The notes under the pieces: generated by a model
What the model was told of the DNA's origin: nothing
Database searches by the model: none
The model's input: only the letters and a program-made list of their open reading frames with translations
Shown: positions 56,146-63,090 of the stretch, in pieces
Numbering within the stretch: the first letter of the stretch is position 1
Layout of the letters: every line of letters begins with the position of its first letter
Source: Streptomyces smyrnaeus
GTDB taxonomy: Bacteria; Actinomycetota; Actinomycetes; Streptomycetales; Streptomycetaceae
DNA length: 64,000 nucleotides
Assembly: GCF_017676345.1 (NCBI RefSeq)
Contig: NZ_JAFFZM010000010.1
Coordinates: forward strand, 186,001 to 250,000
Reading direction: 5' to 3'
Made by a program: the position numbers and the translations under genes

Positions 56146-56955
56146 TCACGCCCGGCAGAGGATCTCGCCGTGGACGACGGTGAACCAACCGTCGGCCTCC
56201 CTGCCCCAGGCCCGCCACGCTTCGGCGATCTCATCCAGCCCGTCCTCGGTGGTCAGGCCGCCGTCGACGGCGACGGCGGCATAGCTGGAGGCCACGGTGC
56301 GGTCCGCCCACAGTTCGCTCCACCACGCACGCTCCTCCGGGGTGCTGAAACTCCAGGTGCTCGTGGTGACGGTGACATCGTCGAAACCGGCCTCGCGCGC
56401 CCACGCGTGCAGCCGTCGTCCGGCATCCGGAACGCCCCCGTTGGCCTGTGCGACCCGGCGGTAGAGATCCAGCCAGACGTCCATGCCGGGCGTTTGCGGA
56501 TACCAGAACATGCCCCCGTAGTCCGCGTCCCGGACGGCCACCACTCCGCCGGGTACGCATACCCGCCGCATCTGGCGCAGCGCACCCACCGGATCGCCCA
56601 CGTGCTGGAGGGTCTGGTGGGCGTGGACGACGTCGAAGGAGTCGTCGGGGAAGTCGAGCGCGTGCACGTCGCCGGTGGTGAACCCGACGTTGGCCACGCC
56701 GCGTTCCGCCGCGGTCGCCCGCGCCTGTTCCAGCACCCCGGCCGCCGCGTCCAGCCCGGTGACCGAGCCCTGCGGGACCAGCGCCGCGAGGTCGGCGGTG
56801 ATGGTGCCGGGGCCGCAGCCGATGTCGAGGACGCGGTGGTCCGGGCGCAGCTGGTCGAGCAGGTACGCGGCGGAGTTGGCGGCGGTGCGCCAGCGGTGCG
56901 AGCGCAGGACGGACTCGTGGTGGCCGTGGGTGTACACGGCGGTCTCGTGTGCCAT
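56146..56955 (-). CDS. Class I SAM-dependent methyltransferase (UbiE-like)
   Basis: 269 residues from the ATG at 56955. The SAM-binding motif VLDIGCGPGT is at about 43-52, with an acidic residue in VTGLDAAAGVLEQA and FTTGDVHALDFPDDSFD. It resembles the UbiE/MenG-like methyltransferases, but the substrate is not known. No ribosome binding site precedes the ATG and a -10-like TACAGT ends only seven bases before it, suggesting a leaderless mRNA. Two dyads lie just upstream. Confidence 0.85.
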   Translation of the reverse strand: MAHETAVYTHGHHESVLRSHRWRTAANSAAYLLDQLRPDHRVLDIGCGPGTITADLAALVPQGSVTGLDAAAGVLEQARATAAERGVANVGFTTGDVHALDFPDDSFDVVHAHQTLQHVGDPVGALRQMRRVCVPGGVVAVRDADYGGMFWYPQTPGMDVWLDLYRRVAQANGGVPDAGRRLHAWAREAGFDDVTVTTSTWSFSTPEERAWWSELWADRTVASSYAAVAVDGGLTTEDGLDEIAEAWRAWGREADGWFTVVHGEILCRA

Positions 56956-58787: not shown

Positions 58788-58910
58788 GCCGCGGCGCACA
58801 CGCGGGCGGCACGCGCGCAGGAGCGCACGTGTCGCCGCTGCCGGTGTCACCGCCGTCTGCCAAGGTGTACGCAAGAAAGGTTGTCAGATAAGCGGTGGAG
58901 GCTGAGACGG

Positions 58911-60275
58911 ATGCGGCCGGACCAGGGCGACTCGGACAGCGCGGGTCCCTGCGCGGTGCCGCAGGCGACCGCCGTGCGCCAGGGCGCGTGCGGCTACTGG
59001 GACCGGCGCGGTCTGCCGACCGAGCCCGCGCAGGTCGCCGTCGCGCCCGGTGGCGCCCTGCTGCTGCTCGCCGTCCTGGCCGCGGCGGCCGGAGTCGGGG
59101 CGGGGACCGGCTCCGGCACGGGCACCGGAGTCGGCACGGGCACCGGGGGAGGTGCGGGCGAGCGGGGGACCGGCAGTGTGCTGCTCCCGCATCCGTGCCC
59201 GCCCTGGTACGCGGAGCAGGCGCGGCTGCTCGGCCGGGCGGTGCACACCGTGCCGGTGCCCGTGGAGTGCGGCGGGATCCCGGACCCGTTCGCGCTGCTG
59301 GAGGCAGTACGCAGGACCCGCGCGGCGGGTGAGGTCCCGCAGGCACTGGTGCTCTCCGTCGCCGACGACGTCACCGGGACGGCCCCGCCGCCCGAACTGC
59401 TGCACGAGGTGTGCGAGGCGGCCGTCGCCGAGGGGCTGCTGATCGTCAGTGACGAGACCTGGCGGGACACCTCGCACGATCCGCACGACACCGTGGTGGT
59501 CAGCCCTGCCGAAATGCTCACCGAGGCGGGTCGGGCCGACCATGTGGTGGTGCTCGCCGGCCTCGAAGCCGCCTTCGAGTCCACGTTCGGAACCGGAGCA
59601 GGAGCCGGAACCGGAGCAGGCGCCGGGGCCGTAGCAGGAGCCGGCACCGGAGGCGGTGCCGTGAACCGACGGCCCGGCCCGCCCCCCGCCATCGCCCGGG
59701 TCCCCGCCACGGGCCGCGGGCGGCTCCTCGGCGAACGGGTGCACGAGGTGCTGGCCGCGCTCCGCGCCGACCTGCCCGGCCCGGCCGCGGAGGCCGCCGC
59801 CGAGGCGCTGCGCGAGCCCGCCGAGCTGCTGTCCCGGCGTGCCGAGGCGGCCCGGCTGCACGGCGGACTGGCCCGCGCGCTGCACCAGGCGGTCACCGGG
59901 GCGGGCGCGCTCTGCCGTCCCCCGCACCTGGGACGACATCTGTACGCCGACCTCGATCCGTTCCGGCCCCGGCTGGCCCGGCGCGGGATCACCGACGCCG
60001 CCGGGCTGGAGGCGGAGCTGGTGCGGCGGCTGGGCCCGTACGCGCTGGGCGGGCACCGCTTCGGCGACGACCCGCACGAACTGCGGGTGCGGCTGACCAC
60101 CGCACTGCCGGCCGCCGCCCTCCCCGCCGCCGACCGGGCCGCACACCGGCCGGTGGGCACCGGAGGGTCCTGGGCGACTGCCCGACCGGAGCCGGGGGAA
60201 TTGCCGGGTGTGGCAGAGACGTTGGCACAGGTGCAGTCGGTGCTGGTCGACCTCACGGATGGGAGTCCTCAGTAG
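58911..60275 (+). CDS. Aminotransferase-fold protein without any lysine
   Basis: 454 residues from the ATG at 58911, with GGAGG upstream; a TTG at 58881 is less likely. The frame follows the class I/II aminotransferase fold (VLLPHPCPPWYAEQARLLG, VTGTAPPPELLHEVCEAAVAEGLLIVSDETWRD, and a C-terminal LYADLDPFRPRLARRG). The segment where the PLP-lysine should lie reads LAGLEAAFE, and the whole protein contains no lysine, so it cannot form a normal PLP Schiff base. Two Gly-Thr/Gly-Ala inserts (59092-59165, 59587-59660) interrupt it. It ends directly before an MBL hydrolase (TAGATG). Confidence 0.75.
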   Translation: MRPDQGDSDSAGPCAVPQATAVRQGACGYWDRRGLPTEPAQVAVAPGGALLLLAVLAAAAGVGAGTGSGTGTGVGTGTGGGAGERGTGSVLLPHPCPPWYAEQARLLGRAVHTVPVPVECGGIPDPFALLEAVRRTRAAGEVPQALVLSVADDVTGTAPPPELLHEVCEAAVAEGLLIVSDETWRDTSHDPHDTVVVSPAEMLTEAGRADHVVVLAGLEAAFESTFGTGAGAGTGAGAGAVAGAGTGGGAVNRRPGPPPAIARVPATGRGRLLGERVHEVLAALRADLPGPAAEAAAEALREPAELLSRRAEAARLHGGLARALHQAVTGAGALCRPPHLGRHLYADLDPFRPRLARRGITDAAGLEAELVRRLGPYALGGHRFGDDPHELRVRLTTALPAAALPAADRAAHRPVGTGGSWATARPEPGELPGVAETLAQVQSVLVDLTDGSPQ

Positions 60276-61595
60276 ATGACCGAACGGACCGGGCAGCCCT
60301 CCGAGCGCTCCCCCCTGACCGACGGGGCCACGGGCTCGGAAACCCCCGAGACGGCCGAGACCCCGTCGGCCGGAGCTCCCGCCCCCACCCCCGCGGCCGA
60401 AGCCCCGGCCGGAACGCCCGCGGCGGCCGGTCCCGCCCCGGCAGGGCCCGCGCCCGCCTCCGGCGGCACCCCGCACGGTGCGCCGTCGTCACCGGGCGAG
60501 GGACCGTCGGGGCAGAGCTGCGCCGGAGGCGGTGGCCGGAGCGGTCCCACCGACGTGCTCCTCCAGCCCCCGCCGCCGGCCCTCTCCCCGCCGCGCCCCG
60601 TCGGGGCCCGCCGCATCTGGCCCCGGTCGTTCACCGACCGGCTCACCTCCCCGCTGCCCGGTGTCCGCGCGATGGCCCGGCTCGCCCGCGAGGGGGCCAT
60701 GCGGCCGATCGGCGCCGCGCTCGCCGAGGAGATCCCCAAGCTCCCCTTCGCGCCGGGCCCGATCCCCGACCCGGGGCCCGACACCGTCTCCGTCACCTGG
60801 GCGGGGCACGCCAGCTGGGTGGTGCGGATCGGCGGTCTGACCGTGCTGACCGACCCGGTCTGGTCCCGGAAGATCCTCGGCACCCCGGCGCGTATCACCC
60901 CCGTCGGCGTGGCCTGGCAGGATCTGCCGAAGGTGGACGCCGTCGTCGTCTCGCACAACCACTACGACCATCTGGACGCCCCCACGCTGCGCAGACTTCC
61001 GCGCTCCACCCCGCTGTTCGTACCGGCGGGGCTGGGCGCGTGGTGCCGCAAGCGCGGCTTCACCACCGTCACCGAGCTCGACTGGTGGGAGGGCGCCGAG
61101 CTGCCCGCCGGGGGGGGCGCCACAGGATCGAAGTCCGGGGCTCGGGCGCGGGTGCGGTTCGACTTCGTGCCCGCCCACCACTGGTCCAAGCGCACCCTCA
61201 CCGACACCTGCCGCTCCCTGTGGGGCGGCTGGGTGCTGACCGACCAGCACGGGCAGCGGGTGTACTTCGCGGGCGACACCGGATACGGGCACTGGTTCGG
61301 CGAGATCGGCCGCCGCTACCCGGACATCGACCTGGCCCTGATGCCCATCGGTGCCTACGACCCGCGCTGGATGCTGCGCCCCGTGCACACCGACCCCGAG
61401 GAGGCGGTGCTCGCCTGCCAGGACGTGGGCGCGCGCCGGATGGCACCCATGCACTGGTCCACCTTCCTGCTCTCGGGCGAGCCCCCGTTGGAACCGCTCA
61501 TCCGCGTGCGGGCAGCCTGGCGCAAGGCCGAACGCCCCCGCGAGGACCTGTGGGACCTCCCGGTGGGGGCCTCCAGGGTGCTGGAGCCCGCCTGA
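60276..61595 (+). CDS. Metallo-beta-lactamase-fold hydrolase (NAPE-PLD/UlaG-like)
   Basis: 439 residues; the ATG at 60276 follows the upstream stop with no gap. Residues 1-105 are Ala/Pro-rich and probably disordered. The MBL fold follows: TWAGHASWVVRIGG, DPVWSRK, the metal motif HNHYDHLD, FVPAHHWSKR, FAGDTGYG and APMHWSTF. The subgroup (N-acylphosphatidylethanolamine phospholipase D/UlaG-like) hydrolyses phosphodiester or lactone bonds in a two-metal site. The substrate is unknown; the fused expression with the lysine-less protein is notable. Confidence 0.86.
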   Translation: MTERTGQPSERSPLTDGATGSETPETAETPSAGAPAPTPAAEAPAGTPAAAGPAPAGPAPASGGTPHGAPSSPGEGPSGQSCAGGGGRSGPTDVLLQPPPPALSPPRPVGARRIWPRSFTDRLTSPLPGVRAMARLAREGAMRPIGAALAEEIPKLPFAPGPIPDPGPDTVSVTWAGHASWVVRIGGLTVLTDPVWSRKILGTPARITPVGVAWQDLPKVDAVVVSHNHYDHLDAPTLRRLPRSTPLFVPAGLGAWCRKRGFTTVTELDWWEGAELPAGGGATGSKSGARARVRFDFVPAHHWSKRTLTDTCRSLWGGWVLTDQHGQRVYFAGDTGYGHWFGEIGRRYPDIDLALMPIGAYDPRWMLRPVHTDPEEAVLACQDVGARRMAPMHWSTFLLSGEPPLEPLIRVRAAWRKAERPREDLWDLPVGASRVLEPA

Positions 61596-61654: not shown

Positions 61655-62317
61655 CTAGGCCCGTGACCCACGCAGGCGGCGCCACACCGATGGTGCCGAG
61701 CTCACCAGCAGCGTCAGCGCGACGGCCGCGACGACGCCCTCCCAGGGGCGGGGGAAGAGGGAGCCTCCCGCGACACCGATGAGCTGGTAGACGGCGGCCC
61801 ACGCCAAACAGGCCAGTACGTCACCGCGGGCGAACTCCCGCATCCGCATCCGGGACAGCAGACAGGCGAGCATCACGGGGATGCGGCCGGCGGGGATCAG
61901 CCGGGAGACGACCAGCACCGCCACCCCGTGTTCGCGCAGCCGTGCGTCGGCCTGGGCGAGCCGCTCGGGTGCGGCCCGCTCGCGGAGCGCCGACAGCCAG
62001 CGGGAGCCGTTCTTGGAGCCGATCCCGCGTTTGCCCAGCCAGTACAGCCCGAGGTCGCCGAGGAAGGCGGCGAACGAGGCGACGCCGAAGACGGCGAGCA
62101 GGGCGAGCACCGGCAGGCTCTGGTGCAGCGCCACCACGGCGGCGCCGCTGACCAGCGCCCCGGTCGGGACGACGGGCACCAGTGAGCCGAGCACCACCAG
62201 CAGGAACAGCGAGGGGTAGCCGATTGCTTGCTGGGTGGACTCCGGCGGGCGTACGACCGTCTCGGAGACGGTGTGGGCGACCGCGCTCAGACCGTCCACG
62301 AGCGCAGTACCGTTCAC
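61655..62317 (-). CDS. Second DedA-family membrane protein
   Basis: 220 residues from the GTG at 62317, overlapping the stop of the upstream MBL gene by four bases. DedA/VTT features are seen: LVPVVPTGALVSGAAV, YWLGKRGIGSKNG, VVSRLIPAGRIPVMLACLLSRM and several hydrophobic helices. It is a separate paralogue of the DedA at 50868, with a different re-entrant loop. Pairing with an MBL-fold hydrolase suggests a lipid-linked substrate, an inference. Confidence 0.87.
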   Translation of the reverse strand: MNGTALVDGLSAVAHTVSETVVRPPESTQQAIGYPSLFLLVVLGSLVPVVPTGALVSGAAVVALHQSLPVLALLAVFGVASFAAFLGDLGLYWLGKRGIGSKNGSRWLSALRERAAPERLAQADARLREHGVAVLVVSRLIPAGRIPVMLACLLSRMRMREFARGDVLACLAWAAVYQLIGVAGGSLFPRPWEGVVAAVALTLLVSSAPSVWRRLRGSRA

Positions 62318-63090
62318 CTGTTCGCCCCCAGCCGTACGCTCTGCCCGTGCTCCAGCAGATGCACCTCCACCTGCGGTGCCGGCCGCGCGGCCAGCCGCTT
62401 GAACTCGGCCCCGGGCGCATGGAACTCGTGCGGTCTGACCGCGTCGAGACCGACCGGCCAGTAGGTGCCGAAGTGCACCGGTACCGCGCTGCGCGGGCGC
62501 AACCGGGTCAGTGCCTCGGCGGCTCGGCGCGCGTCCAGATGCCCCTCCCCGAGGAAGGGTCCCCAGCCGCCGACCGGGAGCAGTGCCGTGTCCACGTCGC
62601 CGACCGCCTCCGCCATCCCGTCGAACAGTCCGGTGTCACCGGCGAAGTAGGTACGCTCCTCGCCCGAGACGACGAACCCCAGCGCGGGTGAGACCTGCCG
62701 CCCCACCGGCAGCCGCCGCCCGTCGTGCGCGGCGGGGACCGCCCGTACGGTCACCGGGCCCACCGCGACCTCGTCGCCCGGGACCACCTCGGTCAGCCGC
62801 AACAGCGGGGCCAGCCGCCGCAGCCCCGGCACCGCGCGCACCGCGCCGCGCGGGACGACGACACGGGTGCCCGGAGCCAGCATGGCCAGCGACCCCGGAT
62901 GCAGATGGTCGGCGTGCAGATGGGAGACGAGCACCAGATCGGCCCGGACCGCGTCCGGCGGCGGCAGCGCGCCGCGCCTGCGGCGCAGATGAGCCAGGCG
63001 GCGCACCAGCAGCGGGTCCGTCAGCACCGTGACCCCCGAGTCCCGCACGGTGGCGGTGGCGTGACCCCACCAGGTGACCTCGACCGGCAC
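62314..63090 (-). CDS. Metallo-beta-lactamase-fold hydrolase
   Basis: 258 residues from the GTG at 63090. It is a UlaG-like MBL protein: TWWGHATATVRDSGVTVLTDP, the metal motif HLHADHLHPGS, FAGDTGLFDG and VPVHFGTYWP. It is distantly related to the MBL gene at 60276 but much shorter and without the Pro-rich N-terminus. Substrate unknown. It is cotranscribed with the downstream DedA gene (GTGA overlap). Confidence 0.85.
   Translation of the reverse strand: MPVEVTWWGHATATVRDSGVTVLTDPLLVRRLAHLRRRRGALPPPDAVRADLVLVSHLHADHLHPGSLAMLAPGTRVVVPRGAVRAVPGLRRLAPLLRLTEVVPGDEVAVGPVTVRAVPAAHDGRRLPVGRQVSPALGFVVSGEERTYFAGDTGLFDGMAEAVGDVDTALLPVGGWGPFLGEGHLDARRAAEALTRLRPRSAVPVHFGTYWPVGLDAVRPHEFHAPGAEFKRLAARPAPQVEVHLLEHGQSVRLGANR

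Follow-up and report, generated by a model that had tools for sequence, protein, structure and literature searches.

By analogy, the best-known counterpart of the protein described here is SPT1/hLCB1, a homologue of PLP-binding subunits that has no PLP lysine and that works in a heterodimer (PMC3794620, PMC6148460). Active and inactive aminotransferase paralogues are also the subject of a study of yeast Alt2, to judge from its title (PMC3458083). In the open-licence papers that were searched, we found neither the pseudo-aminotransferase family reported here nor a paper on an NAPE-PLD-like hydrolase of the kind encoded next to it.

We analyzed a stretch of 64,000 nucleotides from Streptomyces smyrnaeus (contig NZ_JAFFZM010000010.1, positions 186,001 to 250,000), hereafter the window, which carries the following gene pair (coordinates are those of the window):

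58897..58901, + strand: GGAGG ribosome-binding site of the pseudo-aminotransferase gene, seen in the sequence and in 21 of the 22 homologues printed
58911..60275, + strand: lysine-free pseudo-aminotransferase of 454 aa with the predicted fold of fold-type-I PLP enzymes (translation, Pfam, alignment, AF2 model)
60273..60278, + strand: TAGATG junction between the pseudo-aminotransferase gene and the downstream MBL gene, seen in the sequence
60276..61595, + strand: NAPE-PLD-like metallo-beta-lactamase-fold (MBL) hydrolase (PF12706) with metal-site motifs and a low-complexity N-terminus; top PDB match human NAPE-PLD 4qn9, E 1.3e-56

A lysine-free protein with a predicted aminotransferase fold

The translation of the open reading frame at 58911-60275 (+) contains no lysine in its 454 residues, as a previous sequence-only reading of this DNA had stated. 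That reading had also assigned the protein to the class I/II aminotransferase pattern, and it does match PF00155 (Aminotran_1_2) with an E value of 1.9e-6 and a score of 27.7 bits against a cut-off of 19.7; its NCBIfam matches were all far under their cut-offs. The predicted fold agrees with this assignment. The AlphaFold2 (AF2) model had a mean pLDDT of 85.8 and a pTM of 0.87, VIA-align placed it on the prephenate aminotransferase 6f77_A (Z 35.9, rmsd 3.0, 333 aligned), and its top Foldseek match was the T. thermophilus aspartate aminotransferase (AspAT) 5bj3 (E 5.2e-16), while a profile comparison with the PDB returned 1bkg (E 1.1e-35). The architecture of fold type I is thus present in the model, in its similarity to 6f77_A and in a Pfam score above the gathering score.

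The coupling to the MBL reading frame (60276-61595) through TAGATG, also noted previously, is there in the sequence. At the other end of the gene, a longer open reading frame beginning with TTG at 58881 holds a lysine. This lysine is probably not translated, because GGAGG precedes the ATG at 58911 and likewise the chosen ATG in 21 of the 22 homologues printed (in L003 it stands ahead of an earlier ATG), and we consider the ATG at 58911 the likely start.

How unusual is such a protein? Across 337 predicted genes of the same genome, drawn from the window and 20 stretches of 20 kb with a simple GC-position gene caller, lysine accounts for 2.18% of residues, and it is missing from 4 of the 109 genes of at least 400 aa in that sample; the four include the pseudo-aminotransferase gene. 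One protein without lysine is therefore uncommon yet not remarkable alone; the family-wide pattern is remarkable. A nearby methyltransferase of 269 aa (56146-56955, - strand) is also lysine-free, as are 5 of the 13 members of its ortholog group.

Loss of the active site and spread of the lysine-less clade

To follow the active site we used aligned homologues from 61 neighbourhoods, comprising 36 lysine-less and 25 lysine-bearing rows. This split was read from the alignment columns, because the lysine-motif pattern also caught an unrelated SLTK in L016. We take the aligned positions to be PLP contacts from established knowledge of fold-type-I aminotransferases and from the profile match to solved aminotransferases. 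In the window protein these positions are:

59055..59057, + strand: lysine of the GSK motif in the phosphate cup, now Ala49 (alignment: all 25 sister-grade rows have Lys, none of the 36 clade rows does)
59367..59369, + strand: cofactor Asn position, now Asp153 (alignment: all 36 lysine-less rows have Asp, all 25 lysine-bearing rows Asn)
59451..59453, + strand: Asp of the SDE motif, kept as Asp181 (alignment: 36 of 36 lysine-less rows)
59568..59570, + strand: PLP-lysine position, now Ala220 (GCC; alignment)
59682..59684, + strand: phosphate-binding Arg position, now Pro258 (alignment)

An alignment of homologues had been suggested as a way to see whether the lysine is absent throughout; it is absent from all 36 rows of the clade and present in all 25 of the sister grade. 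The Ser of GSK follows the same pattern (25/25 versus 0/36), as does the Asn of NPTG (25/25 versus 0/36, with Asp in all 36), and the phosphate Arg of GGWR is found in 25/25 lysine-bearing versus 2/36 lysine-less rows. The GLSK Ser is replaced in 33 of the 36 lysine-less rows, whose PLP-lysine column has no fixed residue (Gly in 18, Ala in 15, Ser in two, Pro in one). The phosphate cup of the window protein has Ala for the GSK Lys, Gly for the GSK Ser and Pro for the GGWR Arg. Both groups share the Asp of SDE (24/25 lysine-bearing, 36/36 lysine-less) and the C-terminal Arg (24/25 and 34/36), and a remodelled pocket made of Asp181, Asp153 and the C-terminal Arg392/Arg394 has been kept. The claim that no PLP Schiff base can form agrees with these data, as the protein has no lysine and carries Ala220 at the PLP-lysine position. 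Moreover, since the PLP lysine, the GSK Ser and Lys and the cofactor Asn are lost in all lysine-less rows and the phosphate Arg in 34 of 36, the pseudo-aminotransferase is not expected to use PLP, a conclusion that is well supported by sequence.

The family is widespread. A search with the single protein matched 98 of 101 genus genomes at E<=1e-3, a contig scan with the same query placed relatives on two named Streptomyces contigs (at least two loci), and a 32-row profile matched 140 of 150 genus genomes at E<=1e-40. In 129 of these 150 genomes the match exceeded 410 bits, where most lysine-less rows score; this count, made by hand from the table, reflects scores and not the lysine state of each genome, given that a lysine-less row may score lower (L145, 369 bits) and that the profile also reaches lysine-bearing sisters. 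Beyond the genus, 48 of 61 genomes at family rank and 88 of 197 at class rank matched at E<=1e-8. These searches led to full-length relatives at 290-400 bits with GPGSKPLL, PDNPTGT, SDEIYRD, GLSK and GGWR, which look like working aminotransferases. The lysine motif was present in 14 of 14 full-length loci fetched from outside the window's family, where about ten more full-length matches and a number of weak ones also occur.

In a tree built with a quick method, with SH-aLRT as the only support and three other aminotransferases of the window's genome as the root (outgroup row L033 sits on a long branch), the 35 lysine-less rows used group in a single clade (SH-aLRT 100) that is nested among the 25 lysine-bearing rows, so that one change suffices. 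This nesting bears out the enzyme origin put forward by the sequence-only reading. The truncated L080 is absent from the tree and present in the neighbour, active-site and insert counts; this copy, from genome G005, covers profile positions 71-303, and its genome is also without a close hydrolase. Nei-Gojobori dN/dS, a rough count at such G+C content, was 0.14-0.42 over 12 pairs, and the window's own pair was the highest (0.42). The nearest relative, at 73%, has the same architecture as the window protein. Catalytic residues are lost clade-wide from a gene under purifying selection, as in a pseudoenzyme, and this is thus a conserved, old pseudo-aminotransferase of single origin, forming a clade in the genus and sister genera. 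It is not the decay of one copy, because 129 of the 150 genomes match above 410 bits and the 12 pairs lie between 0.14 and 0.42. Lysine-bearing homologues beside a merely decayed copy had been named as the outcome that would speak against the earlier reading: such homologues do exist, as all 25 sister-grade rows show, but the lysine was already lost in the ancestor of a large conserved clade.

Two readings at the level of the single gene were weighed against these results. A decaying pseudogene in this strain could explain the dN/dS of the window's pair, the growth of simple repeats in two loops and the lost N-terminal segment, but the frame is open and preceded by a ribosome-binding site, the core is conserved, the gene is retained across the genus and the closest relative shares its architecture. 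We consider this reading very improbable, and strain-level decay was set aside on the dN/dS range and the genus-wide matches. The same low standing applies to an ordinary aminotransferase that employs another residue or binds PLP non-covalently. It would account for the predicted fold and the kept SDE Asp, but it has to face the replacement of Lys, GSK Ser/Lys and cofactor Asn in 36 of 36 rows, of the phosphate Arg in 34 and of the GLSK Ser in 33, together with a lysine column that is not fixed on any substitute.

Why, then, is lysine missing altogether? Among the 32 homologues extracted first, 25 are entirely lysine-free with the chosen starts, and the set holds 8 lysines in 13,110 residues. 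In the alignment, 28 of the 36 lysine-less rows are without any lysine and 8 contain lysine in the matched region; the 12 lysines over the 36 rows may include some 5' of the true start (L061 has two there and none with the chosen start). The lysine-bearing relatives are already lysine-poor (0.955%, at least two lysines each), and four of them (L132, L135, L136 and L138) have just two, both functional. Total absence of lysine, to judge from these counts, is mainly the product of a lysine-poor ancestry and the loss of the two functional lysines, and drift from a lysine-poor start is its simplest account. The sequence-only reading had invoked selection or composition bias; low-lysine ancestry and the two functional losses explain most of the pattern, and selection against lysine keeps a low probability. 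Active exclusion of lysine, for example because lysines would be open to pupylation or to attack by reactive aldehydes and acyl donors, would fit the fall to 0.083% lysine in the clade at equal Arg (9.04 versus 8.99% in the sister grade) and the 28 lysine-free rows. It would also fit a K/(K+R) of 0.005, below the 0.035-0.256 of all 10 other ortholog groups at the same 21 neighbourhoods (groups present in at least 6 of the 21, genes from the simple GC-position caller). However, the four sister-grade proteins with two functional lysines indicate that drift may suffice, 8 of the 36 rows do hold a lysine, and rows of shared ancestry are not independent; we regard active exclusion as unlikely.

The two Gly-rich inserts noticed earlier correspond to the following features:

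59089..59174, + strand: Gly-rich insert 1, spanning about residues 61-88, an 18-bp-period tandem repeat modelled as a low-confidence loop
59588..59668, + strand: Gly/Ala-rich insert 2, tandem repeat with an 18-bp period, 4.4 copies, low-confidence loop after the former lysine

The 18-bp-period arrays (59089-59146/59115-59169 and 59588-59668) exist, and the second closely follows the lysine position, as described. They are not a general feature, however, because the anchors at site 1 are spaced by 8 residues in 52 of 61 rows (35 in the window, 21 in the nearest relative) and those at site 2 by 14 residues in 58 of 61 (44 and 25, respectively), with smaller growth at site 1 in a few other rows. 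The inserts as a family feature were therefore rejected; repeats seem to have expanded in two loops of this lineage, most of all in this strain.

The downstream hydrolase and the proposed role

The match of the downstream hydrolase to 4qn9 spans residues 170-436, and an HxHxDH-type metal-site motif is present in the majority consensus. The start of the gene (60276-60770) encodes a long N-terminal stretch rich in Pro, Ala and Gly, which has tandem repeats of its own at 60361-60454; the protein has 439 aa, and its relatives are mostly shorter (281-408 aa by gene call). The hydrolase gene follows on the same strand, at most 2.5 kb away, at 31 of 36 lysine-less versus 0 of 25 lysine-bearing loci (Fisher p 1.6e-12, a value that overstates the independence of the loci). 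On the tree, the state of this neighbour requires 5 changes, consistent with a single gain and subsequent losses, and the association between lysine loss and the hydrolase counts as one event, because both map to one branch. At the 25 of 31 loci with a recognised hydrolase start, the distance between the genes runs from -4 to 146 bp, with a median of 52. Among the clustered neighbours, which derive from the calls of the simple GC-position caller, none is as constant as the hydrolase, and its spacing is operon-like. Of the five lysine-less loci without it, four belong to genomes with only distant paralogues and one to a genome with none at E<=1e-20; four of these five pseudo-aminotransferase copies look full length. 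In two genomes with a lysine-bearing relative, a close hydrolase is encoded at another place, and the hydrolase lineage thus does not need the pseudo-aminotransferase. PADLOC defence families matched neither protein.

Other features of these loci were recorded. A VTT-domain gene (61655-62299, - strand) and a second MBL gene of the Lactamase_B_3 type (62314-63090, - strand) are convergent to the pair and syntenic at many loci. In seven rows from sister genera (L145, L155, L156, L158, L159, L177 and L178), the stop codon of the pseudo-aminotransferase gene starts a recurring TGA-NN-TAC(C/G)GTC word that might be a promoter or operator of the hydrolase gene. Directly next to 8 of the 25 lysine-bearing sister aminotransferases is a gene of about 439 aa (L141:7149-8465 and relatives); this group has no Pfam match at E<=1e-5, and an AMP-binding ligase lies near some of its members.

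A structural or regulatory role, as previously suggested, is plausible. Our model, to which we give about an even chance, is that of an ancient PLP-independent pseudo-aminotransferase that either partners the downstream NAPE-PLD-like hydrolase or senses a ligand and regulates it. Its ancestor was an aminotransferase related to the aspartate and prephenate aminotransferases, which lost the lysine, the phosphate cup and the cofactor Asn on one branch. The predicted fold and the remodelled pocket (Asp181, Asp153, Arg392/Arg394) have been retained under purifying selection, and the non-catalytic protein, without PLP, would partner or regulate the hydrolase encoded next door. Contact with the hydrolase could involve two helices with charged positions that have become conserved (E131/R135 and E162/E166); alternatively, an amine or carboxylate ligand could be bound in the old pocket. 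Ten alignment columns are fixed differently between the groups (at least 88% and 80%), and E131, R135 and E162 (36/36 each) and E166 (34/36) are conserved in the lysine-less clade and variable in the sister grade, a pattern that favours a new surface role.

Distances of the pseudo-aminotransferase and the hydrolase gave partial correlations of 0.31 (p 0.012), 0.14 (p 0.18) and 0.03 (p 0.44) under three controls, and the pseudo-aminotransferase distances correlate more with those of other neighbours (0.48-0.62). In this weak test, co-divergence of the two proteins beyond that of neighbouring genes thus appears weak and not specific. Folding both proteins as a fusion read through the TAG, likewise a weak test, gave a pTM of 0.54 and no confident sign of docking, from an alignment that was unpaired but for three rows and whose other aminotransferase rows were short at the C-terminus. 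Neither result speaks specifically for direct contact. Further counterpoints to the model are the single evolutionary event behind the association, the five lysine-less loci without the hydrolase, the two close hydrolases encoded away from a lysine-bearing relative, and the dN/dS comparison, in which the window protein's pair shows the weakest constraint of the 12.

A stand-alone function, in which the pocket binds a metabolite or runs a PLP-free reaction and the hydrolase is a mere pathway or gene-block neighbour, is distinctly less probable than the partner or regulator model. It would explain the conserved Asp181/Asp153 and C-terminal Arg pair, the gene kept without the hydrolase at 5 of 36 loci, the unspecific co-divergence, and the synteny of the VTT-domain and second MBL genes at many loci. 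It sits less well with the hydrolase being the most constant clustered neighbour at operon-like spacing, and no new catalytic motif was recognised in the pseudo-aminotransferase. We find it improbable, somewhat more so than active exclusion of lysine, that the protein pairs with an active aminotransferase as the inactive half of a heterodimer, like SPT1/hLCB1 in serine palmitoyltransferase. That precedent, as reported in PMC3794620 and PMC6148460, and the 27 other PF00155 matches in the window's genome, all possible partners, speak for it. However, no lysine-bearing sister was found in the window's genome (the sole match at E<=1e-8 is the gene itself), and more than one match occurs in just 16 of the 140 matching genus genomes, some of these being fragments of one gene; on these two grounds, a heterodimer with the lysine-bearing sister was set aside as a general model, whereas a partner from another aminotransferase family may exist. 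The partner or regulator model also has a bolder extension, which we regard as a long shot: a two-gene streptomycete lipid module in which the dead PLP pocket would sense an amine or amino-acid head group and gate the NAPE-PLD-like phosphodiesterase, with lysine excluded because the N-modifying (acyl or aldehyde) chemistry of the module would modify it.

Comparison with known systems

Because the gene passes the Pfam cut-off, genes of this kind are likely to be named PLP-dependent aminotransferases by automatic annotation despite the lost cofactor site, and the pseudo-aminotransferase should not be read as one. In this family the step from enzyme to pseudoenzyme is clean: relatives with the lysine still exist, the loss happened once, the pocket has been replaced and the gene has acquired a new neighbour. 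The family thereby makes the function of a dead PLP fold in bacteria testable in standard laboratory strains and brings an NAPE-PLD-like hydrolase to notice.

With the PF00155 class I/II aminotransferases (T. thermophilus AspAT 1bkg/1bjw; prephenate aminotransferases 6f77 and 5wmh), the pseudo-aminotransferase has in common the whole predicted fold (Z about 34-36), the SDE Asp and the C-terminal Arg. In contrast to these enzymes, it is without the PLP lysine and the phosphate cup, has Asp in place of Asn, and its N-terminal segment is reduced. The lysine-bearing sisters (L141-L144, L146-L152, L161-L173 and L180) are full-length homologues that share the GG.P, SDE and LR.R motifs; unlike the pseudo-aminotransferase, they keep the lysine, GSK, the NPTG Asn and the GGWR Arg, and the hydrolase gene follows none of the 25. 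The window hydrolase resembles NAPE-PLD (4qn9) in sequence and in the HxHxDH-type motif, but it is bacterial and has a low-complexity N-terminus. Yeast Alt2 is eukaryotic, unlike the Streptomyces protein. Finally, SPT1/hLCB1 is likewise a lysine-less PLP-enzyme homologue retained as a partner; it differs in belonging to the alpha-oxoamine synthase family and in having an active paralogue, not an MBL hydrolase, as its partner.
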